NCBI RefSeq assembly: GCF_033705735.1
Contig: NZ_CP131130.1
Span: forward strand, 1,429,001-1,493,000
DNA length: 64,000 nt
Direction: 5' to 3'
Source of the DNA: Shinella zoogloeoides
GTDB lineage: Bacteria > Pseudomonadota > Alphaproteobacteria > Rhizobiales > Rhizobiaceae
The position numbers were made by a program, and so were the translations under genes. The notes beneath the pieces are model-generated. The model had not been told where the DNA came from. It ran no database searches and worked only from the letters and a program-made list of their open reading frames with translations. Shown here piece by piece: positions 33,477 to 44,353 of the stretch (the stretch's first letter is position 1; each line of letters opens with the position of its first letter).

Positions 33477-34226
33477 CTAGCCGATTTGCGAGAGAATGGG
33501 AAACGTTTGCTGGAACCAGATCGCAACGGCGCTGACATAGCCGAAGATGAAGGCTAGGCCGGTGAGGATCAGCAACCCTCCCATGACCTTCTCCACCGTG
33601 CCGAGATGGCGGCGGAAGCGCACGAGGAAGCGCATGAAGGCGCCGGAAAAGCCGGCCGCGATCCAGAACGGAATGGCAAGGCCGAGCGAATAGACGGCCA
33701 GCAGCACCGCGCCGTCGCCGACGGTCTCGCGCGCCGCGGCGATGCCGAGGATCGCCCCCAGCACCGGACCGATGCAGGGCGTCCAGCCGAAGGCGAAGGC
33801 AAGGCCCATTATATAGGCGCCGGAGGCGGTCGCCGGCTTGCCGCCGCCCTGGAAGCGCGCCTCGCGGGCAAAGAGCCCGATGCGCAGCACGCCGAGGAAA
33901 TGCAGGCCCATAAGAATGATGATGACGCCGCCGATCTGGGCGAGCACGTCGAGATGCTTGCGCAGCACCATGCCGATCGTCGAGGCCCCGGCGCCGAGCG
34001 CGACGAACACCGTCGCAAAGCCGAGCGTGAAGAAGAAGGCCGCCAGCAGCACAGCGCCCCGCGTATCGCGCCGCACCGCCACCGCCTCGCTGCCGCGGAA
34101 CTGGTCCACCGAAATGCCCGCCATATAGCACAGATAGGGCGGCACAAGCGGCAGCACACAGGGCGACAGGAAGGACAGCGCCCCGGCAAGAAGCGCGCTC
34201 AGAAGGGAAATATCGGCAATCGACAA
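33477..34226 (-). CDS. ccdA: Cytochrome c biogenesis protein CcdA
   Basis: A 249-residue inner-membrane protein of six helices that passes electrons from cytoplasmic thioredoxin to periplasmic thiol proteins, for example during haem attachment to c-type cytochromes. The two redox cysteines are in FLSPCVLPLVPPYL and FGWTPCIGPVLGAIL, each preceding a PxxP-type helix end. A tRNA-Lys lies upstream. The nearby multihaem protein (38799-42041) would need this maturation route. Confidence 0.94.
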   Translation of the reverse strand: MSIADISLLSALLAGALSFLSPCVLPLVPPYLCYMAGISVDQFRGSEAVAVRRDTRGAVLLAAFFFTLGFATVFVALGAGASTIGMVLRKHLDVLAQIGGVIIILMGLHFLGVLRIGLFAREARFQGGGKPATASGAYIMGLAFAFGWTPCIGPVLGAILGIAAARETVGDGAVLLAVYSLGLAIPFWIAAGFSGAFMRFLVRFRRHLGTVEKVMGGLLILTGLAFIFGYVSAVAIWFQQTFPILSQIG

Positions 34227-34429: not shown

Positions 34430-34505
34430 TGGTGAGCGCGCAGGGATTCGAACCCTGGACCTACTGATTAAAAGTCAGTTGCTCTACCGGCTGAGCTACG
34501 CGCTC
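34430..34505 (-). tRNA. tRNA-Lys (anticodon UUU)
   Basis: The reverse strand folds into a 76-nt cloverleaf: acceptor GAGCGCG with CGCGCTC, D-arm AGCTCAGCCGGTAGAGC, anticodon loop CTTTTAA (anticodon TTT), T-arm GGTTCGAATCC, encoded CCA. Confidence 0.96.
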
Positions 34506-34651: not shown

Positions 34652-36196
34652 TCAGTGAACCGCATATTTCAGCAGTCCCAGCGACCAGTTCACGCTGCGG
34701 TTCTCCGTGTCGCGCGTCCAGGTCTGCTTCAGCGTGCCCGCTATATCGGCGATGGTGGTGCGGGCGTCGAGTTCCTTCGTCAGGCCATAGTCGTTCGGGG
34801 CGACCCTGGTGAGGTCGACGTCGTCGGCGATGACGATGGCGACGAGAACGTTTTCGCCCGGCCCGTCGGCCTCGAAATCGAAGCCGTAATAGTCGTCTGG
34901 AATGGTGAGCGGCATGTTGGCGGTCAGCGGCGTGATCTTGCGGGCCGCCTCGTTGGGGAAGATCTGCGTCGCCTTGCCGTCCTTGTCGACGTCGTAGAGG
35001 ATGAGGTGCCCGCTCGTGGCGCTCGTCACCGTGATGCGGAAGGCATCGCCGGTCTTCAGATAGTCCGAGGAGAGCGCCACCTTGACGTCGCCGGTCTCGG
35101 CCTTGCCGAGGATATCGCCGACGGCCTCGACCGGGTCGGCGGCGACATAGGCCGTCTGCTGGGTGTTCTCGACCTTCACCTCCTCGATCTTGCCGTAATC
35201 GGGCGTCGGCTGCTGCGCGGTCTCGCCGCCTGCCTGCTGCGCCTGCCCGCCGGTATCTGCCGGCGCGACGGCGCTGGCGCCGAGCAGCGCGTAGTTCACT
35301 TCCAACTGCGGATCGAGGCCCTGGCATTCCGACTGCGCGGCGCAATAGGACTGCGACTGCTTCTTCACATATTCCAGCAATTCGGCATTGGAGACGATGC
35401 CGTTGCCATTGCTGTCGGCGGCGGCGGTCTCGTGGCCATTGACATAGGAGAGCGTGAAGACGCCGTGCCGCTCCTCCGGCGGCAGGCGCGTATCGTCCCA
35501 GGCGACCTGATAGGACGAGGCAGCGCTCCACGCTTCCACGCCGTTCTGCCTGGCGATCTCCGGCTTGTCGACCACGGCGACATCGATGCGCAGGCCGCGC
35601 GTCTTCACCACCTCGCCTGGCTTTGCATGGGGGCGCGGCAGGAAGCGCGCGCTTTCCATCGCCTCGGCGACCTCCGTCGAGAGCGAGCGGGAGATGGTGC
35701 CGGAGTGGCAGGCGTCGATGACGATGGTGACGGCGCGATCCTTGAGCTTCGCCAGCATCGCATCGATCTCGTCGTCGAGAATCACATTGGTCCAGTCGCC
35801 GTCGCCGGCGGCAATGTCATAGGTGGAAAGCGCCTCGTCGAGCCCGTCCTCCTCGTCGCCGCTCACGTCCTTCACCTGCAGGCCATGGCCCGAAAAGTAG
35901 AAATAGACCCGGTCCCCCGGCTGCGTGCCGTTGACCAGCCAGTCGTCGATGCTGGCGAGGATCGCGGCTCGGCTGGCATCCTGATCGCGCAGGACGCGGA
36001 TCGAATCGGCCGGATAGCCGAGCTTTTCCTTCAACAGCGTCTCGATCAGCGGCGCGTCGTTCTTCGGCCCTTCGAGGAACATCTTTTCCGGCAGGTTGGC
36101 ATAGGTGCCGATGCCGACGATCAGCGCCCGGTCGGCGGCGGAGGCCATGGAGCCAAGACCGAGCGAAAGCAGAAGGGCTGCGGCATACCGGATCAT
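34652..36196 (-). CDS. Exported caspase-like (C14) protease with EF-hand loop and DUF4384 domain
   Basis: A 514-residue protein. Signal peptide MIRYAAALLLSLGLGSMASA, so periplasmic or exported. A caspase/metacaspase-type peptidase domain covers about residues 22-250, with catalytic His104 in YFSGHG, Cys163 in IDACHSG, and the SGDEEDGLDEAL segment seen in metacaspases. An EF-hand loop (D261 to E272, DSNGNGIVSNAE) has all the calcium ligand positions. A Q/P-rich linker leads to a DUF4384-like domain (about 385-470, GDAFRITVTSATSGHLILYD). The last gene of a five-gene operon; its ATG overlaps the stop of the first caspase-like gene by 1 bp. Substrates unknown. Caspase-like enzymes usually cleave after Arg/Lys or Asp; specificity here cannot be read directly. 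Confidence 0.88.
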   Translation of the reverse strand: MIRYAAALLLSLGLGSMASAADRALIVGIGTYANLPEKMFLEGPKNDAPLIETLLKEKLGYPADSIRVLRDQDASRAAILASIDDWLVNGTQPGDRVYFYFSGHGLQVKDVSGDEEDGLDEALSTYDIAAGDGDWTNVILDDEIDAMLAKLKDRAVTIVIDACHSGTISRSLSTEVAEAMESARFLPRPHAKPGEVVKTRGLRIDVAVVDKPEIARQNGVEAWSAASSYQVAWDDTRLPPEERHGVFTLSYVNGHETAAADSNGNGIVSNAELLEYVKKQSQSYCAAQSECQGLDPQLEVNYALLGASAVAPADTGGQAQQAGGETAQQPTPDYGKIEEVKVENTQQTAYVAADPVEAVGDILGKAETGDVKVALSSDYLKTGDAFRITVTSATSGHLILYDVDKDGKATQIFPNEAARKITPLTANMPLTIPDDYYGFDFEADGPGENVLVAIVIADDVDLTRVAPNDYGLTKELDARTTIADIAGTLKQTWTRDTENRSVNWSLGLLKYAVH

Positions 36197-37749
36197 CAGA
36201 GCGCTTCCCGCGTGTAAAGGGGTTGGATAGCGACGCTCGCTTCCTTGCCGTCGAGGCGCGTCATCAGGGCCTGGAGCAAGGCGGCGGCGGTCACGTTGCG
36301 GTCGGCGAGCACCGCGCCGATGGCGTCCACCGGCTCGGCGGTCCAGATCGTGATCAGGTGATCGGCGCCGAAGGGCTTGACCACCTCGACATCGGTCAGC
36401 TTGAACTCGGAACTCGCCGTTCCCGCCGCCTGCATGTCGAGGAACTGCACCTCGCCCGTATTGGCAAGGTTGAAGACCAGCATGTTGGGATAGCGCCCGG
36501 GCGGGGCGTCGAAGCGCAGGCGATCACCGGCGGCATAAATATCCCGTGTCGGCCTCAGGGAGACGGATCCGGGATTCTGGCTAGCCATGGCCTTCAGGAA
36601 ATCGAGCAGCACGAATTTGTCGACCACCGCCTGGATGCGGTCCGGACCGATATTTTCCGCGGCGACATCGCCGTTCGGCGTATAGAAGACGCCATTGGCG
36701 ACATCCCAGCGGAAGGGCGTGCCCGTGCCGTCCGTATTCTCCGGCTTTTCGGCATCGCCGTCGATCTCAAGGGCGATCTTGCCGGTCCAGCCGAGCTCCC
36801 GCGCCGGTTTGAAGGCGTGCGGCATCGCATTGTCGCCGGCGACCTCGCCATTGCCGGGAAGGCCGCGCGTGAGGCGCACGACGACCTCGCTCTCCGAGCG
36901 CGCCACCTGCGGCGTGAAATTCGGCACCTGCAGCGCTTCCGAGCGGTTCTTCACATTCGAGAAGACGTAGTCCTCCAGTTCGATGCGGGTGATGATGCCG
37001 TCGCCGTTGCGGTCTGCGCTGCCCTCCACCGCGCGGGCGAAGCTCCAGCTCAGCGCACCGCGCGGTTCGCCGTCGATGATGACTTCAGGCGTCGGCTGGC
37101 TCTCCAGCGATGCGGCGAGCACCGTCACCTGCTTGAAGTCGATTTCCTTGAGGTTCGCGCCGTCGATCGCCTCCTGCGAGGGCGCGGCGAGCTTGACCTT
37201 GACCGCAGGCGCAAGGCGCGACTTGCCCTTGATGGACCGGCTCATGCCGCCGGAAAAGCAGCTGTCGGAGACGAAGAGCACATGCACCCCCTTGCCTTCC
37301 GCCTCCGCGAACCAGGCATTCATCTCGTTGTCGACGATGATCTCCCTGGTGGTCTCCTCGTAGCGGTTGCGGTCGAAGCCCGGAAGCTGGAGGAATTCGT
37401 CGAGCCCGTCCGCTTCGTCGCCCGCGATGAGCTCCGGCATCTGCGCGCCGTGGCCGGCATAAGTGAAGATGATGGTGTCGCCCGCCGCCGCCTCGGCCAC
37501 CATGTCCGTCCAGGCCTTGCGGATATCGTCCTTGCGCGCCTCGGAATTGGTGAATTTCACCACCTTGAAGCCGGCGGCGCTCATCGAGCGGTAGACGTCC
37601 TCCGCGTCACGCACCGCGCCGTCGAGGCTGACATCGTTCGGATACTGGTCGACGCCGACGACGAGCCCGTAGGTCTGCGCCGCAAGGGCGGCGCCCGGAA
37701 AGGCGGCGGTGAGGAAAAGCGCCAGGAGGCGCGGCAGCAGTGCCCTCAT
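36196..37749 (-). CDS. Exported caspase-like (C14) protease with EF-hand loop, paralogue
   Basis: A 517-residue protein. Signal peptide MRALLPRLLALFLTAAFPGA, cleavage near AALA. A caspase-type domain has catalytic His100 (TYAGHGAQ) and Cys164 (VSDSCFSGG) and the AGDEADGLDEFLQLPGF segment. An EF-hand loop (D246 to E257, DRNGDGIITRIE) is complete. The C-terminal half, after about residue 330, is only loosely like DUF4384 (DIYAAGDRLRFDAPPG). It is clearly a paralogue of the next gene but quite diverged, so the pair is old. It overlaps the OmpA-family gene by 4 bp (ATGA) and the other protease by 1 bp, so all three are translated together. Confidence 0.87.
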   Translation of the reverse strand: MRALLPRLLALFLTAAFPGAALAAQTYGLVVGVDQYPNDVSLDGAVRDAEDVYRSMSAAGFKVVKFTNSEARKDDIRKAWTDMVAEAAAGDTIIFTYAGHGAQMPELIAGDEADGLDEFLQLPGFDRNRYEETTREIIVDNEMNAWFAEAEGKGVHVLFVSDSCFSGGMSRSIKGKSRLAPAVKVKLAAPSQEAIDGANLKEIDFKQVTVLAASLESQPTPEVIIDGEPRGALSWSFARAVEGSADRNGDGIITRIELEDYVFSNVKNRSEALQVPNFTPQVARSESEVVVRLTRGLPGNGEVAGDNAMPHAFKPARELGWTGKIALEIDGDAEKPENTDGTGTPFRWDVANGVFYTPNGDVAAENIGPDRIQAVVDKFVLLDFLKAMASQNPGSVSLRPTRDIYAAGDRLRFDAPPGRYPNMLVFNLANTGEVQFLDMQAAGTASSEFKLTDVEVVKPFGADHLITIWTAEPVDAIGAVLADRNVTAAALLQALMTRLDGKEASVAIQPLYTREAL

Positions 37750-38729
37750 TTGAGATCTACCTCGACCCGGCGGTGCAGCTGGTTCAGCGTCTCCGTGTCA
37801 TAGGCGCTGGCATCGTCCGGCTTGAAGGGCTCGTCCTCGCCCTTGCCGACGGTCGTGATCGTGCCGGCATAGCCGGCATCGTAAAGGTAGGTCTTCAGCG
37901 TTTCGGCGCGCGCCAGCGAGAGCTTGTAATTGGCCTCGGCGGTGCCGACCGGGTCGGTGTGGCCGATGAGCTTGATGGCGGCCGGCTTCACGGCCTTCAG
38001 GCATTCGGCGAGGTCCTTCGCCGCCTCGACGCCCTCCGGCGTGAAATCCGCCGTGCCGAACACGTAGCGCACCGGCGTCGACTTCTTCTTGATCGTGACC
38101 CCGCGGAACGCGATCTTGCAGCCGCCGCGCATGGAGAGCTTGACCGGGCACGGGGCGGCAAGGCGCATTTCGCCGGCAAGCCGGTCGAGGCGCAGGATGT
38201 ACGCCTCGTCGGGCGCCATCCAGTCCGGCGTCAGCGTCTTGTTGGAGCCATCCTCCAGCGCGATCTGGTAGAGCCGCGCGGCCTCCTCGTAATCCTTGCG
38301 CTCGCGGGCAAGGTCGCCGAGCGCGTCATAGACCTGCCAGGGACCGCCATATTTCTCCTTCAGTTCCTCCAGCACCTGTCGGTGATCGGCAAGCTTGCCG
38401 CCATTGCCGACATCGACGGCGACGCGGTTGAAGGCGGTCAGCGCAGCGACGCGGCCGACGAGCGTGCGCTCGTTGGCGCTGCAATTGGCCGTGCCCGCCG
38501 TCTCTGCGGCGGCAAACGCCTTCTGCTCGTCACCGGCGTTGAAGGCATCGACGACACCGTTGAACGCCTCGCAGGAGGCCGATGCCGGCGCCGTGTCCGC
38601 GAGGACGAAAGCGGCCGTCGCAAGCGCGATCCCGATGAAGGCCCGCAACGGTGCCCTCGCGAGGTCGGGGGCAGGACCGCCTTGGCGCGCCGAAGAAATG
38701 CGAAAATGCTCCCGGTATCGCATCAGCAT
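37746..38729 (-). CDS. OmpA-family peptidoglycan-binding protein with TPR-like repeats
   Basis: A 327-residue exported protein. A hydrophobic segment (FIGIALATAAFVLADTAPAS) after about 30 residues acts as signal or anchor. The middle (about 55-170) is helical with a TPR-like unit (QVYDALGDLARERKDYEEAA). The end carries an OmpA-C domain (GHTDPVGTAEANYKLSLARA, with the Asp and Arg that grip diaminopimelate), so it should bind peptidoglycan. The region just before (RYVFGTADFTPEGVEAAKDL) is the domain start. The N-terminal start is uncertain. It probably anchors or scaffolds the neighbouring proteases on the cell wall. Operon with them by a 4-bp overlap. Confidence 0.84.
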   Translation of the reverse strand: MLMRYREHFRISSARQGGPAPDLARAPLRAFIGIALATAAFVLADTAPASASCEAFNGVVDAFNAGDEQKAFAAAETAGTANCSANERTLVGRVAALTAFNRVAVDVGNGGKLADHRQVLEELKEKYGGPWQVYDALGDLARERKDYEEAARLYQIALEDGSNKTLTPDWMAPDEAYILRLDRLAGEMRLAAPCPVKLSMRGGCKIAFRGVTIKKKSTPVRYVFGTADFTPEGVEAAKDLAECLKAVKPAAIKLIGHTDPVGTAEANYKLSLARAETLKTYLYDAGYAGTITTVGKGEDEPFKPDDASAYDTETLNQLHRRVEVDLK

Positions 38730-38798
38730 GGTCCGTCCAGTCCCCTCATGTCTTCATCGAATCGGCAGGCAGGAGCCGGAAGGCCCCTGCCCTTGCTA

Positions 38799-41700
38799 TC
38801 ATTGGATTTCGAACGTCACCATCTGCAAGCCGCTCGCACCGTTATCCTGTTCGGCCTGCCTGGCGAGGTTGATGGCAAGGCCGCGCGTGGTCGGCTGCCT
38901 GGAGCCCGCAACGATCTGCTTGGCCTTCTCCGCCGTGAGCTTCTGGTCGCCGAGGCCGCCGATCTTGCAGACGGCGATCATCGTCTCGCCGGGCGACGGC
39001 GAATCGAAGGTCAGGTTGCCGCTGCCGGGTTGCGGAATGACGCGCCGCTCGCCGGGATGCAGCGTCGTGTCGCCGATCATCACGTCCGGGATGATCTCGA
39101 CATTTCCGGTATCCTCCACATAGACCACCTGGAGTTCGCAGTCGTGGTTCGTGCTGAGCTCGAAGCTCAGATAGTCCCCGACCTTCGCGCTCGTCGACGG
39201 CACATGCAGGGCGAGCTTCACCTTGTCGGCCTGCGCCTTGTCGTCCTGCTTGTAGGCCGGAACGGCGTGGGCGGTGTTCGTCGCCGCCTGATACTGATCG
39301 TCGCCGGTTGCCTGCTCCGGCTGCTGGGGGGTCGCGGTATCGACGGCGACCGCGTCGTGGTTGACGCCGCGCTTCAACGGTTCGAGCTGCAGAAGCGGCT
39401 GAAGCATGAAGGCATATTGCTCCTCCAGCTCGACGCGCGGAACGGTGGCGCCCGCCTCCAGCGTCGCGACCCAGTCGAGGCCGATGCGCAGCGCGTCGGC
39501 ATCCGTCAGGCGGCGGATATCGGAGGCGAACTGCTCGGGCGTCATGTCGAACTCGGCGGCAAGCTGCTCGAAGTTCAGCTCGTCCTCGTACTTGTCGGCG
39601 AAGTAGGTGAAGATCTCCGCCCCGCCGGGCGCCTTGAGACTGGTCTTGCCGCCGCCGGCCGTCGCCTCTGTGATGCCGAGGCGGTCGAGCGCCGAGACGA
39701 AGCGGTCGGTATCGCGCTTGTAGACCTCGTTCAGCTCCTCCTGCGGCACATAGAGGGCAAGCAGCTCGTCCTGCTGGTCCTTGGAGAACAGCGTGGAGGT
39801 CTCGATATGCTCGCGCAACTGGTCGCGCTTCGACAGGATGCCGTCGAAATGGCAATCGAAGCACGAGCGGGCATTGATGATCTCGACGCCCTTGCCGATC
39901 GGCCGCTTGCGGAAGGACACGATCTTCGCCGGGCCGACATCGAGCTGGTCGCCCTTGTTGGTCGACAGGTAATATCCCTGCATGCCGTTCGGCAGCGAGA
40001 AGATCATTTCACCGCCATCGTGCTCGAAGGGCAGCAGGCCGGCTTTCAGGCGGATACCGTCCGGACCGGCCGGGAAGCGCTTGAGCACCTGCCGCCCGAC
40101 GTCGCCGGCAAAATCGTAGGATTTCCAGTAATAGCCGCCGAAAGGCATGTCGTGCCGCTCCAGCATGCGGTTATGGTCGGAAACCCCCGACGAGCCGTCG
40201 GCGAAGCCGGCGCGGACGACGCGGCGGCGCTCGATGTTCTGCGCGACGTTGACGCCGAAGCGCTGCTCCAGCTCGATGATGTTGGTCGGCAACTTCATGA
40301 GACGGTTATAGACCTTCGGCCGCGCGCCGTTGCTCATGAACCAGTCTATCCGCATGATGGGAAGCTGCGTTTCCGTCGCCTTGGCCAGCGCCTGCAGCGA
40401 GGCGTTGCTGGCCGGATCGACGCCGTAGAAATATTCGTTGACCAGGAAATCGTAGTCTTCCTGGCTCCATTCGAGATCGCGCAGGTCGATGCGCACCAGA
40501 AGGCCGTCTGAGCCTTCCACCTCCTCGGGAACGACGAGCTCCGGCCCGTAGGACAGCGAATTGAGGAGCTTCTTGAAGCCGCCGGCGAGCACCTTCATGC
40601 GCTTGAGGAAGGTCTCGTGCGTTTCGCAGCTCATCATGCCGTTATACTGGTCGCGATAACTGAAATAACGCATGAACGGCTGGTCGTGCGCATCGACCTT
40701 GGAAATATCACGCAGCGCCAGATCGACGAAATCGAGATATTTCAGCATCGGCCGGGAGCGCTCGGTCTTCGTCGCCGAAACCGCGGTGGGGATCGCCGAC
40801 TTGCTCAGCGAATTGATCCAGTCGGCAAGGCCCTGCACCTCGGCATCCGAGGGACGCTTGCCGAGCGGCATGCGGCCGCTGGTGACACTCGTGTAAAGCA
40901 GGGACTTGGAGGCGTCGCCGGGTGTGACGAAGGCCGGGTTCGCGGCAATCGAGCCCAGTTCGCCCGAGGGGAACGAGCCCTGCGAGCTTTCGCCCGGCCC
41001 GTGGCAGTTGCGGCAATATTTGCCGATGAAGGCATCGGCCGCCGATGCGAATTCCGTGCTGCCGCCACCGGCGCCGAGCGCGCTTTCCGCCGTCGCCTCG
41101 CTGCACACCGGCGTCGGGCTCGTCTCGACCGGCGTCACCTTGACCTCGCGGTCGGCGAGGAAGGCGTACATCGCCTGCCTGTCCTCATCGGAAAGGGTGG
41201 AAAGGCCCTCGGCGATGCGGCGCATGACCGGATCGGAAAGCGGCGAGCCCGAGAGCTTCTTGCCCTCCTCGATCAGCCTCTTGGTGAAGACCTCGTGCGA
41301 GGCCAGGCCGGCCATGCGCGCCTTGGTGATATCCGGCGCGACGGCGCCGGTCAGGCCTTTCTCGCCCTCGTAGGCGCGGGCAAGGTCGAGGCCATAGGTG
41401 GTCGTGCGCGGCGTATGGCAATCGCCGCAGCCGCCGACATTCTCGACGAGGTAGCGGCCGCGTTCCATCTGCGTCTCTTCGCGCTTCTGGTAGGCCTGCA
41501 CGACGAAGTGGCTGCGCTTCCAGAGCGTGATCGTCGTCTGGCGGCTGAAGGGGAAGGCGATCTCGTGTTCCTTCGAGGCGGCATCCGATTGCGGCAGCGT
41601 CTCGATATAGGCCTTGATGTCCAGGACGTCCTCCGGCTTCATGCCGCCATAGGACGTGTAGGGCATGACCGGATAGAGGTTGTCGCCGTCCTTCTTGAGG

Positions 41701-42041
41701 CCGACCATCACGGCGTTGAGGAAGTCCGCATTCGACCAGCCGCCGATGCCGTTCGGATGGGCCGAGATGTTCGGCGCGAAGAACTTGCCGATCGCCGTCT
41801 GCATCTCCATGCCGCCGGAAAGCAATCCGGTATTGTCGCCGGAGCCGTGGCAGGCGCCGCAACCGGCGGCGCTGAACATGATCTTGCCGTTCTCGACATT
41901 CGCCTGATAGCTGCCGTAGGCGTCCGGCGCGAACTGGTCGATGGCAAAGGCCCCGGCCGGACAGAGAACCGCCACGGCAAGGCCGAGCGCCGCGGCGAGC
42001 CGCGCGCCGGGCCGGATGAATGACTTGCTGAACACGCGCAT
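38799..42041 (-). CDS. Large exported multihaem cytochrome c with DUF4384-like C-terminus
   Basis: A 1080-residue protein with signal peptide (RLAAALGLAVAVLCPAGAFA). Four CXXCH haem motifs: CGACH at 61-65, CGDCH at 205-209, CRNCH at 343-347 and CFDCH at 727-731. The first 415 residues look like two cytochrome c domains of the dehydrogenase-subunit type plus a third. Residues about 430-830 resemble a haem domain I know from planctomycete-type proteins (LLVRIDLRDLEWSQEDYDFL, YYWKSYDFAGDVGRQ). A DUF4384-like domain follows at about 950-1045. I chose the ATG at 42041 after GGAGCGAAGGGA; a TTG at 42092 overlapping the upstream stop is the alternative. Likely a periplasmic electron carrier or redox sensor partnering the flavocytochrome encoded upstream. 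Confidence 0.82.
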   Translation of the reverse strand: MRVFSKSFIRPGARLAAALGLAVAVLCPAGAFAIDQFAPDAYGSYQANVENGKIMFSAAGCGACHGSGDNTGLLSGGMEMQTAIGKFFAPNISAHPNGIGGWSNADFLNAVMVGLKKDGDNLYPVMPYTSYGGMKPEDVLDIKAYIETLPQSDAASKEHEIAFPFSRQTTITLWKRSHFVVQAYQKREETQMERGRYLVENVGGCGDCHTPRTTTYGLDLARAYEGEKGLTGAVAPDITKARMAGLASHEVFTKRLIEEGKKLSGSPLSDPVMRRIAEGLSTLSDEDRQAMYAFLADREVKVTPVETSPTPVCSEATAESALGAGGGSTEFASAADAFIGKYCRNCHGPGESSQGSFPSGELGSIAANPAFVTPGDASKSLLYTSVTSGRMPLGKRPSDAEVQGLADWINSLSKSAIPTAVSATKTERSRPMLKYLDFVDLALRDISKVDAHDQPFMRYFSYRDQYNGMMSCETHETFLKRMKVLAGGFKKLLNSLSYGPELVVPEEVEGSDGLLVRIDLRDLEWSQEDYDFLVNEYFYGVDPASNASLQALAKATETQLPIMRIDWFMSNGARPKVYNRLMKLPTNIIELEQRFGVNVAQNIERRRVVRAGFADGSSGVSDHNRMLERHDMPFGGYYWKSYDFAGDVGRQVLKRFPAGPDGIRLKAGLLPFEHDGGEMIFSLPNGMQGYYLSTNKGDQLDVGPAKIVSFRKRPIGKGVEIINARSCFDCHFDGILSKRDQLREHIETSTLFSKDQQDELLALYVPQEELNEVYKRDTDRFVSALDRLGITEATAGGGKTSLKAPGGAEIFTYFADKYEDELNFEQLAAEFDMTPEQFASDIRRLTDADALRIGLDWVATLEAGATVPRVELEEQYAFMLQPLLQLEPLKRGVNHDAVAVDTATPQQPEQATGDDQYQAATNTAHAVPAYKQDDKAQADKVKLALHVPSTSAKVGDYLSFELSTNHDCELQVVYVEDTGNVEIIPDVMIGDTTLHPGERRVIPQPGSGNLTFDSPSPGETMIAVCKIGGLGDQKLTAEKAKQIVAGSRQPTTRGLAINLARQAEQDNGASGLQMVTFEIQ

Positions 42042-42088
42042 GGCTTGTTCCCTTCGCTCCAGAACGCCGGCTCGCCGGCTGGAAATCC

Positions 42089-43348
42089 TCAACGGAATTC
42101 GAAACGTTCGAACTCGACGCGGCGTGGCGGCTTGCCGAGTTCCCTCAATCCCTTCTCGATGGCCATGCGCAGGGGCGGCGGACCGCAGAACCAGAGGTCC
42201 GCTTCCGCCGGGTCCATGCTGGTGCCGGCAACGAGCTTGGAAGCGTCGAAGCGGCCGTCGGTCGTCGAGTTGTGCAGCACGAAGCTGAAATTGCCGAGCT
42301 TTTCCGCCTGCGCCCTGAAGGTGTCGACGCCGATGGCTTCGGCGCCGTCGCGCACGCAGTAGACCATGTGGATATCCTGCCCCTCGTCGCCCTTCAGCCG
42401 GCTCGCCATGGCGAGGAACGGCGTGACGCCGATGCCGCCGGCAAGCCAGATCTGCTTCTTGCCGCCGCGCCTGTGGTTGAAATGGCCGTATCCGCCCTCC
42501 AGCGTCAGCGGATCCCCCACCGCCACAGCTTCCCGCAGCGCCTTGGTATAATCGCCGAGCGGCTTGATGGCGAAGCGGACGGTACCGTCGTCCTCGATGC
42601 CGGCGATGGTGAAGGGATGCGGCTCGCGAAGGCCGGACTTGTTGACCCGGAAGAAGCCGAACTGGCCGGGCAAGGCCCGAAGCTTGCCGCCGGTCGGCCG
42701 TGCCGTGATGATCGTCGCGCCGTCGTGACGGTCGACGTCGACCACCTCGTATCTGCGCGTGCGGAGCCAGGGCAGCAGTTGCGTATAGGCATAGCTGACG
42801 ACGCCAAGGAGGGCGAAGAGGTTGAGATAGGCCGCCAGCAGCGCCGTGCCGTCATAGGGGCGCTTGATGAACATCTGGTGGAAGGCGACCAGCAGGAAGA
42901 GCAGGCCGATGAACCGATGCGTGAAGCGCCAGTACTGGTAGGGAATCTGGAAGCGCGTCTTCGGAACGACCTTCACGATGGAGAGGACGAGCAGGAAGAC
43001 GAAACCGTAGAAGGCCCACTCGCCCGCCGTCTTGGCGAGCTTGTTGAGATCGCCCGTCAGCGAGAGTCCCTGGAAATCCGGCGCCACGAAATAGTGCACG
43101 AGGATCAGACAGAGCACCGCGATGCCGATCTTGCGGTGGAACTGGTAGATGCGGTCGAGGCCGCCAAAGAGCCGCTCGATGAAGGGCGGACGCGTCGCCA
43201 TGAACTGCGCGATGCCCATGGCGACGAAGGCCATGGAGGAAGCCATCAGGGAGAAGGTGGTGCCCGCATTCGTATGGCTGACGGCCGGCACGGCGAGAAG
43301 GCCGGCGAGAACGATCAGGATCGTCGCGATGATGGAACCCGCAGTCAA
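42089..43348 (-). CDS. NOX/ferric-reductase-like membrane flavocytochrome
   Basis: About 419 residues: six membrane helices, then FAD and NAD(P) domains. Haem-ligand histidines occur as H-x13-H (QFHRKIGIAVLCLILVHYF) in helix 3 and H-x12-H (THRFIGLLFLLVAFHQ) in helix 5, the spacing of NADPH oxidases. The FAD motif is HPFTIAG, the nucleotide motifs are GGIGVTPFLAMA and CGPPPLRMA, and the protein ends in FERFEFR. It moves electrons from cytoplasmic NAD(P)H across the membrane to oxygen, iron or a periplasmic acceptor. There is no ATG near the start. I chose TTG at 43348, after GTGGGGG, just before the first helix. First gene of the operon with the cytochrome and proteases. Confidence 0.83.
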   Translation of the reverse strand: MTAGSIIATILIVLAGLLAVPAVSHTNAGTTFSLMASSMAFVAMGIAQFMATRPPFIERLFGGLDRIYQFHRKIGIAVLCLILVHYFVAPDFQGLSLTGDLNKLAKTAGEWAFYGFVFLLVLSIVKVVPKTRFQIPYQYWRFTHRFIGLLFLLVAFHQMFIKRPYDGTALLAAYLNLFALLGVVSYAYTQLLPWLRTRRYEVVDVDRHDGATIITARPTGGKLRALPGQFGFFRVNKSGLREPHPFTIAGIEDDGTVRFAIKPLGDYTKALREAVAVGDPLTLEGGYGHFNHRRGGKKQIWLAGGIGVTPFLAMASRLKGDEGQDIHMVYCVRDGAEAIGVDTFRAQAEKLGNFSFVLHNSTTDGRFDASKLVAGTSMDPAEADLWFCGPPPLRMAIEKGLRELGKPPRRVEFERFEFR

Positions 43349-43661
43349 CCTATGCCCCCACAATGCAACTGGACGGTCCGAGTGGCGGGCATGCTGGCAA
43401 GGCCCATGACATTCGTCAACCGCAATCCTCCTATCGACGGGCGGGCCGGCGGCTTTATTCGGGGGCTTTTGGGCTGGTCCGCGAAACGGCTGGGGAAAAC
43501 CTAATATGACAACGGAACAAGGCACATAGAAATGGACTTGGCCGGTTTTCCTTTAAGCCAGCGGGCAAGCCTTCGCGCCCGGAGAGGTCTGGACGGCAGG
43601 CGAATCCCCACCTCTACCCGGATCCTTTCGGACCTCGCGCCAACCCATCACCGCAACGCTC

Positions 43662-43732: not shown

Positions 43733-44353
43733 ATGACGGAAACCGCGGCATCGCAAGCCCACCTCGCCTATCTCGCCCTCGAAGGCCTCATCGTCACGCT
43801 CAAGCTGAAGCCCGGCTCGCTCGTCACGGAAAGAGAGCTCATCGAGCTTGCCGGCCACGGCCGCACGCCGGTGCGCGAGGCGATCCAGAAGCTGGAATGG
43901 CAGGGACTGATCGCCGTGCGCCCCCGCGCCGGCCTGCAGATCACCGCGATCCGCCCCGAGGACCATGCGGAAGTGATGACCACGCGCCGGCAGCTGGAAC
44001 CCCTTGCCGCCGACCTCGTCGCGCGCCATGCCGGCGAGGAGCACCGCGAACAGCTCGTCGCCTGCGCGCAGGAGATGACCGCCTGCTCCATCCGCTCCGA
44101 CATGGAAGGCTTCCTGGCGGCCGACAAGGTGTTCGACGAGATCATGGAGGCGGCCTGCCCCAACCGCTTCCTGACGTCCGCCCTCGCCCCACTCCAGACC
44201 CATTCGCGCCGCCTGTGGTTCGCCCGCGCCGATCACCGGCACATGGACCGGTCGGTAGACCTGCACGTGAAGGTCATCCGCGCCATCCGCAACGGCGACG
44301 GCCTGGCTGCGGCGGCCGCGATGACGGATCTGCTTGATCACCTCTCCGACTGA
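43733..44353 (+). CDS. GntR family regulator (FCD type)
   Basis: A 206-residue regulator with a winged helix (LEGLIVTLKLKPGSLVTERE, then GRTPVREAIQKLEWQGLI) and an FCD effector domain (RRQLEPLAADLVARH, DKVFDEIMEAACPN). Short chain but complete. Two palindromes lie just upstream, so it probably controls itself; it is also divergent to the flavocytochrome-protease operon and could control that. Ligand unknown. A shared terminator separates it from the convergent fpr. Confidence 0.9.
   Translation: MTETAASQAHLAYLALEGLIVTLKLKPGSLVTERELIELAGHGRTPVREAIQKLEWQGLIAVRPRAGLQITAIRPEDHAEVMTTRRQLEPLAADLVARHAGEEHREQLVACAQEMTACSIRSDMEGFLAADKVFDEIMEAACPNRFLTSALAPLQTHSRRLWFARADHRHMDRSVDLHVKVIRAIRNGDGLAAAAAMTDLLDHLSD

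Follow-up and report, generated by a model that had tools for sequence, protein, structure and literature searches.

A conserved gene set with a NOX-type flavocytochrome, a four-haem cytochrome, an OmpA-type protein and two caspase-fold proteins in Shinella zoogloeoides

The analyzed window, a stretch of 64,000 nucleotides from Shinella zoogloeoides, contains five open reading frames (ORFs) on the minus strand at 34652-43348, ordered nox, cyt, ompA, casA and casB in 5′ to 3′ direction. They encode a flavocytochrome, a cytochrome c, an OmpA-type protein and two caspase-fold proteins, and their linkage in other genomes exceeds chance. The source genome is very close to Shinella zoogloeoides, the cytochrome being 99% identical to the one in strain PQ7. 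The genes and their parts are as follows:

42089..43348, minus strand: nox, SpNOX-type transmembrane flavocytochrome b of 419 amino acids (aa) from the TTG at 43348 (Pfam)
38799..42041, minus strand: cyt, putatively exported four-haem cytochrome c of 1080 aa (Pfam, CXXCH motifs)
40800..41966, minus strand: N-terminal three-haem region of cyt, a homologue of the cytochrome subunits found in membrane-bound dehydrogenases for fructose, aldehyde and alcohol
39342..40766, minus strand: middle domain of cyt, carrying the fourth haem motif; Pfam and NCBIfam gave no model above cut-off
38802..39239, minus strand: DUF4384-like C-terminal beta-sandwich of cyt (Pfam 2.2e-5, below cut-off; hhalign P 95 to the casB C-terminus)
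37746..38729, minus strand: ompA, putatively exported TPR/OmpA protein of peptidoglycan-binding type, 327 aa (Pfam OmpA 1.1e-11)
36196..37749, minus strand: casA, putatively exported caspase-fold protein of 517 aa with the dyad His100/Cys164 (Pfam Peptidase_C14 5.9e-14)
36979..37014, minus strand: EF-hand-type loop of casA, residues 246-257, D246 and E257 conserved
34652..36196, minus strand: casB, putatively exported caspase-fold protein of 514 aa with the dyad His104/Cys163 and a C-terminal DUF4384 (Pfam)
35381..35416, minus strand: EF-hand-type loop of casB, residues 261-272, first D and last E conserved

The distance from the nox stop codon to the cyt ATG at 42041 is 47 bp; with the TTG at 42092 as start, both genes overlap by 4 bp. 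A gap of 69 bp lies between cyt and ompA, followed by a 4-bp overlap (ATGA) of ompA and casA and a 1-bp overlap (TGATG) of casA and casB, which confirms the tight packing of five leftward genes noted in the original prediction. The nox ORF could also begin further upstream, at 43525. Scans for promoters and terminators gave site numbers not above those of shuffled sequence. Four exported proteins had been proposed, and the N-termini of casA, casB, cyt and ompA indeed appear export-like by eye; with a simple hydropathy cut, casA, cyt and ompA passed and casB failed.

For nox, the Pfam domains Ferric_reduct, FAD_binding_8 (24 bits, cut-off 22) and NAD_binding_1 (24.2 bits, cut-off 22) were found above cut-off. 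The domains binding flavin adenine dinucleotide (FAD) and NAD(P)H stand after the transmembrane domain, the order that characterizes members of the NOX family. The best solved relative was 8qt6 (E value 2e-39), aligned over residues 25-419. The bis-His b haems of NOX enzymes are bound by His pairs 12-13 residues apart on two helices. The His residues of haem-ligand type in nox (H71/H85 and H144/H157) were kept in 44 of 44 relatives and in all eight rows of alignment A7, and the pattern of two bis-His b haems seen in SpNOX-type oxidases is present. The C-terminal FEFR was likewise found in 8/8 rows of A7, the window included. At the level of sequence, the domains and the His pattern are in line with the transmembrane electron path that had been predicted.

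In cyt, Cytochrom_C and Cytochrome_CBB3 were identified above the Pfam cut-off, with DUF4384 below it (24.9 vs 27 bits). The CXXCH motifs are located at residues 61, 205, 343 and 727, and four motifs were present in 45 of 45 relatives, so that the predicted four-haem carrier was borne out. The first ~340-384 residues, comprising three haems, match the dehydrogenase cytochrome subunits 7w2j, 8gy2 and 8gy3. A predicted model of the whole protein reached a pLDDT (predicted local distance difference test) of 81.8 and a pTM (predicted template modelling score) of 0.61, with the middle haem domain folding confidently. The fold search with this model resulted in 4 matches at E<=0.001, all of them dehydrogenase cytochrome subunits aligned to the N-terminal arm. 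With the middle domain alone no solved relative was found, which is no proof of absence since VIA-align re-ranks Foldseek candidates only. Besides its haem motif, the middle domain has the invariant residues N69, W100, W142, R200, R204, W214 and D218 and the motif LPNG. It is a candidate for a possibly new haem-c fold, and it belongs to no Pfam family. One relative of the cytochrome (P0120) ends in an FGE-sulfatase domain (PF03781), and a C14-FGE fusion adjoins nox-cyt in locus L086.

The TPR match of ompA is below the Pfam cut-off. The ten positions checked in ompA (GHTDPVGTAEANYKLSLARAET) were invariant in 44 of 44 cases. The gene is adjacent to the Peptidase_C14 (C14) genes on one strand, as is characteristic of OmpA-metacaspase operons.

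For casB, Pfam identified Peptidase_C14 (3.5e-20) and DUF4384 (1.8e-14), with EF-hand_1 below the cut-off (19 vs 25.4 bits); casA gave no Pfam EF-hand match at E<=0.1, though the 12-residue loop is present. The closest solved relatives of casB are metacaspases, among them 4f6o at 1.7e-18. The His-Cys dyad of casA was found in 43 of 43 alignable close relatives and in 11 of 11 rows of alignment A3 (window included), and the loop ends D246/E257 in 44 of 44. In casB, the His was kept in 41 and the Cys in 42 of 43 close relatives, one residue being absent from three Ensifer loci, and the loop ends D/E were conserved in 43 of 43 alignable sequences. Two caspase-fold proteases with EF-hand loops, as originally described, are therefore supported as sequence by Pfam C14, dyads and conserved loop ends. 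In a wider set, both dyad residues of casB were lost in L092, L094, L096, L098, L099 and L143, and one in L120, L121 and L156; the loop ends were retained in all six rows with both residues gone. Since the dyad is kept more strictly in casA and the casB loop is kept after loss of the dyad, conservation suggests that casA is the enzyme of the pair and casB in many cases a partner of structural or regulatory function, with a loop that may outlast activity. Pseudo-variants are known among orthocaspases, and metacaspases and orthocaspases cleave after positively charged residues, according to the abstract of PMC6426788.

The C-termini were also compared with each other using hhalign. The values were P 95 for casB and cyt, 59 for casA and casB and 30 for casA and cyt, compared to 0.3-1.0 for three unrelated pairs. 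A domain common to the cytochrome and a protease is the best hint from the sequences of direct contact, and no proof of it. Further observations concern single caspase loci. In L156 (12264-15614) the frames of casA and casB are each split in two with nox and cyt intact, which could be due to caspase decay or to a sequencing error. In L115, six caspase-type genes including casA and casB surround an ompA gene within 15.6 kb, and G079:C46:19221-20627 is a casA-like sequence inside an open frame of 2901 residues.

For the analysis of linkage, genomes were sampled with the family taken as Rhizobiaceae and the order as Rhizobiales. Among 45 loci of named genomes found by the cytochrome scan, 44 contain all five genes in the same order; this count includes L032, in which nox is cut by the contig end, as well as L047 and L043, in which casA and casB, respectively, are fragments. 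The flanking fpr-cysI region is conserved too in many named loci and, because of this, the linkage in named genomes alone could be inheritance.

In the evenly drawn sample of 151 family genomes, the full cytochrome (E<=1e-150) was detected in 12. NOX at E<=1e-170 was found in exactly the same 12 genomes, both being absent from the other 139 (Fisher p 5e-18); this cut was chosen after the gap to the next match (3e-149) had been seen. For casA (E<=1e-60), 10 genomes were identified, 8 of which are shared with the cytochrome (Fisher p 4e-9). Given the relatedness of the genomes and this late choice of the NOX threshold, the p values are only indicative. All 11 other carriers of the family sample were examined, and in ten of them nox lies beside cyt with a C14 gene in the stretch. 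Six of these ten hold ompA, casA and casB (casB is short in L151 and the caspase frames are split in L156). In L159, ompA, casA and another C14 gene stand beside nox-cyt with no recognisable casB, and in L153, L155 and L158 nox-cyt occurs with a different C14 gene, which in L158 was identified by profile alone. On the eleventh carrier, L162, a contig of 6.1 kb, nox and cyt occur together with an ompA-like gene; a C14 gene is absent. The loci L150, L151, L152, L154 and L157 are probably from the same genomes as L016, L043, L033, L008 and L041 and are thus not independent. In sum, the genes belong together as predicted, and homologues in related genomes are not mostly apart.

The middle domain of cyt was found in 39 of 297 genomes of the order. 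For 31 of these 39 (G075, G141, G192, G200, G214, G234, G257 and G289 were left out), stretches of ~20 kb were used, usually reaching 8-10 kb to either side, or less where a contig ended. A C14 gene was present in the stretch at 18 of the 31 loci, compared to ~1.3 of 39 expected from the C14 counts for a distance of 10 kb. The generic C14 profile was seeded with Pfam-confirmed genes, and distances were taken from the loci examined; the C14 of L103 is weak (Pfam 4.8e-10), and the C14 of G200, ~6.5 kb away by coordinates, was not added to the 18. NOX was found at only 6 of the 31 cytochrome loci. An even sample of 349 genomes from the phylum yielded 3 with the middle domain, all of the same class and one of them the source genome; of the other two loci, L149 carries caspases.

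The gene orders differ between lineages. Arrangement (a), nox-cyt(4 haem)-ompA-casA-casB, was found in Rhizobiaceae and in L081, and in L086 and L159 without a recognisable casB. In L149, from another order of the class, nox-cyt-ompA-casA and three subsequent C14 genes all lie on the same strand. Arrangement (b) consists of split cytochromes without NOX, either as cytN(2 haem)-casA-casB-cytMid(2 haem)-ompA (L092, L094, L096, L098 and L099) or as cytMid-ompA-casA-casB (L090 and L091). The two-haem cytN adjoins casA also in L112, L119, L122, L132 and L143, with an ompA gene between them in L119. In arrangement (c), NOX-cyt occurs with different C14 proteins that have TPR, Sel1, PG_binding, PAN or LprI matches (L048, L080, L082 and L083; the PG_binding match of L082 is below cut-off). 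The different C14 gene is on the opposite strand from NOX-cyt in L083 and L155. Ten proteins near the type II and related loci were checked as a substitute electron donor, and no redox donor was recognised among them; two had no match, and the others were transporter parts, sigma-54, HpaB, a CHASE2-cyclase and one C14 protein. In L084, L085 and L087 (genus f33 g37) a four-haem cytochrome was observed with no nox or C14 in the stretches, and in L084 and L085 an ompA-like gene is divergent.

Several parts of the operon resemble systems already described. Passages of Asplund-Samuelsson et al. (2012; PMC3501461) report 14 predicted metacaspase operons with OmpA as well as multi-metacaspase operons in Alphaproteobacteria, and the present locus likewise has caspase-fold and OmpA-domain genes in one predicted operon. 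It differs from these operons in its redox genes: the word cytochrome is absent from the main text of PMC3501461, and a NOX or haem relay is not mentioned in those passages. With SpNOX of Streptococcus pneumoniae (8qt6), as it is described in parts of PMC11031084, nox shares the family, the haem His pattern, the FAD and NAD(P)H domains and the C-terminal phenylalanines. Unlike SpNOX, the close nox subfamily adjoins a four-haem cytochrome in every locus examined, usually with caspases. The three-haem arm of cyt is homologous over the haem domains to the cytochrome subunits of fructose, alcohol and aldehyde dehydrogenases (7w2j, 8gy2 and 8gy3), whereas the middle haem domain and the DUF4384-like end are additions of cyt. 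The caspase domains of casA and casB with their His-Cys dyad are similar to those of metacaspases and orthocaspases (4f6o, 7qp0 and 4afr); the export-type N-termini, EF-hand-type loops, DUF4384-type ends and the probable inactivity of casB in some cases distinguish the pair. Caspase domains, sometimes with peptidoglycan-associating domains, are also described for the vWA-MoxR conflict systems in sections of PMC7159879, where these systems are NTP (nucleoside triphosphate)-dependent.

Three known systems were rejected as an identity of the operon. A vWA-MoxR conflict system is not indicated, as neither MoxR nor vWA was among the Pfam domains of the five proteins. An AdhB-type dehydrogenase complex would agree with the homologous arm, but Pfam found no partner dehydrogenase among the other four operon proteins. 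For an anti-phage defence system, the scan of the five proteins with PADLOC gave only caspase matches at the domain level, without partner genes. In the titles and abstract starts of the open-access literature among the matches listed, no description of a NOX/cytochrome/caspase gene set was found. The original statement that the full set is undescribed thus holds among these matches for the combination and does not hold for OmpA in metacaspase operons. Because such operons are in print, in the passages cited, since 2012 (PMC3501461), only the redox part looks new.

It is quite possible, and is proposed here tentatively, that the operon encodes one envelope system, namely a peptidoglycan-anchored periplasmic metacaspase pair coupled to a haem relay that is fed from the cytoplasm. 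In such a system, the NOX-type protein would carry electrons from cytosolic NAD(P)H through the inner membrane by way of FAD and two b haems, as expected from its family. Adjacency and co-occurrence suggest that the electrons would then reach the exported cytochrome and travel along its AdhB-like arm, with three haems, to the middle-domain haem. The cytochrome and casB, perhaps also casA, could dock via their common DUF4384-type C-termini, and OmpA would fix the complex to the wall. Judged by conservation, casA may be the main protease and casB its partner, catalytic or not, and Ca2+ at the EF-hand loops might stabilise or switch the pair. Finally, the redox state of the relay, given by the NAD(P)H supply or by the oxidant load outside, might set caspase activity and thereby the cleavage of envelope proteins. 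That the first four steps form a single physical module is far more probable than the particular gating proposed in the last one. The envelope location is predicted from N-termini judged by eye. A use of cytochrome c that counts for this proposal is described in part of PMC11031084, where the activity of SpNOX was monitored through the reduction of cytochrome c. Of the periplasmic redox- and Ca2+-linked proteolytic system in the original prediction, linkage, electron-path motifs and EF-type loops are found, and the redox and Ca2+ gating is conjectural, as is the suggested role in envelope stress, lysis or cell death.

A number of observations weigh against a single coupled system. No C14 gene was found in the stretch at 13 of the 31 cytochrome loci (G033, G036, G037, G053, G110, G115, G144, G150, G152, G169, G177, G220 and G274, that is three of f33, five of f2 and G036, G037, G115, G144 and G150), and G177 has no C14 gene anywhere. 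In G036 and G037, OmpA-casA-casB is located on another contig, as is casA-casB in G150, there close to the contig end, and the two pieces of G144 are contigs of 3.6 and 4.4 kb. A cytochrome without a near caspase, arrangement (e), is seen in L084, L085, L087, L088, L089, L097, L105, L137-L139, L141 and L148, the last being the phylum-sample locus with a middle domain and no other parts. Conversely, of 38 casA genomes in the order sample (E<=1e-60), 16 have the middle domain; 20 of the 22 without it, and G233, were examined, and G106 was not. OmpA-casA-casB, arrangement (d), occurs in 9 of these 20 loci, 7 of which lack a cytochrome in the stretch, and an OmpA gene is present in 15 of the 20. 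Ten further family genomes have weaker NOX matches (down to 1e-40) without the cytochrome, and four loci of distant NOX (L160 and L163-L165) gave no cytochrome or C14 match in the stretch. The second middle-domain protein of G113 (L140, 9240-11387) has no CXXCH and adjoins a two-haem cytN gene. Across the wider set, 46 of 48 rows have the casA dyad, the exceptions being L122 and L142, and the casB dyad is complete in 21 of 30, one or both residues being absent from 9. The EF ends are found in 43 of 48 rows for casA (lost in 5) and in 26 of 30 for casB (lost in 4), and the DUF4384 match of casA is weak. The combined, split and shuffled arrangements show the set to be modular, its caspase and redox parts being found together, separated and rearranged. 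The five genes as one set, as they were first described, are thus kept together in 44 of 45 loci and are separable elsewhere, as seen from OmpA-casA-casB without cytochrome, cytochrome without caspase, the 6/31 of NOX and the loss of the casB dyad in some lineages.

The main rival explanation sees in the redox part a haem enzyme of metabolic or detoxifying function. Its middle domain would act as a periplasmic reductase or peroxidase driven by NAD(P)H, and the role of the caspases would be limited to maturing, anchoring or turning over the parts of this enzyme. This is rather doubtful, although the invariant residues of the middle domain beyond the haem motif resemble an active site more than they do a simple relay, the arm shares homology with the cytochrome subunits of dehydrogenases and the cytochrome is found without a nearby caspase. 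Pfam identified no dehydrogenase catalytic subunit among the five proteins, OmpA-casA-casB stands alone elsewhere, and different C14 genes recur beside NOX-cytochrome, which a mere role in maturation does not predict. Inherited synteny in Rhizobiaceae with no functional coupling may have contributed, as the conserved fpr-cysI flank indicates that the 44 of 45 loci partly reflect one ancestral event and several family-sample loci are from the same genomes as named loci. As a full explanation it is very improbable and, for the NOX-cytochrome pair, already unlikely, considering that the order is shuffled in other families and in a genome of another order and that close NOX relatives and the cytochrome are co-absent from exactly 139 of 151 genomes.

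An oxidative module, in which NOX makes periplasmic superoxide or peroxide and envelope damage (autolysis, neighbour killing or defence) is carried out or restrained by the caspases, is unlikely. It would fit the relationship of nox to SpNOX, the description of NOX enzymes as producers of reactive oxygen species in parts of PMC11031084 and the matches of both caspases to the PADLOC caspase profile (3.5e-24 and 4e-13). The profile, PDLC02987, was matched only in part (5-167 and 2-130 of 453), and PADLOC gave ompA-ZorB weakly (0.001) and nothing for cyt and nox. Furthermore, the presence of a dedicated four-haem protein next to NOX speaks against oxygen being the acceptor, and the neighbours in the window are housekeeping-like (cysI and fpr, by eye) with a tRNA-Lys, although no defence-gene scan of the surroundings was made.

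The envelope system proposed above can be extended to a bacterial counterpart of the cytochrome c-caspase coupling. A NOX-reduced multihaem cytochrome with a haem domain of unseen fold would directly bind and switch periplasmic metacaspases, and a loss of reducing power would lead to envelope proteolysis; we consider this stronger version improbable. The alphaproteobacterial periplasm corresponds to the mitochondrial intermembrane space. If the coupling is real, caspases would have come under redox control independently in a lineage related to mitochondria, the evolutionary link being speculative. The operon makes the role of bacterial caspase homologues directly testable by offering a conserved set of partners. 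This set comprises a likely compartment, an electron source, a wall binder, Ca2+-type loops and a caspase pair with unequal retention of the dyad, in culturable soil bacteria.

The surroundings of the operon include one further feature downstream of casB:

34430-34505: tRNA-Lys

Just past it lies a gene for a DsbD_TM protein (cytochrome c biogenesis, transmembrane) at 33477-34226 on the minus strand. It is probably not part of the operon, as it occurs near it only in L005-L008, L011, L012, L016 and L046, which are some Shinella loci and L016. On the other side, a GntR/FCD regulator gene (43733-44353, plus strand) is divergent from nox with 384 bp between them. It is a possible regulator; no claim of control over the operon is made, the gene not always being located beside nox among the named loci. 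The assignment of the window neighbours as housekeeping-like (cysI and fpr) was made by eye, with no family search. The source genome encodes two further C14 proteins with Sel1 repeats, G000:C1:652892-653551 (L106) and G000:C1:1351455-1352129 (L107). A peptidoglycan-binding domain is also found in the protein of L106 and is below cut-off in that of L107, and a C14-Sel1 protein akin to both adjoins NOX-cytochrome in L048.

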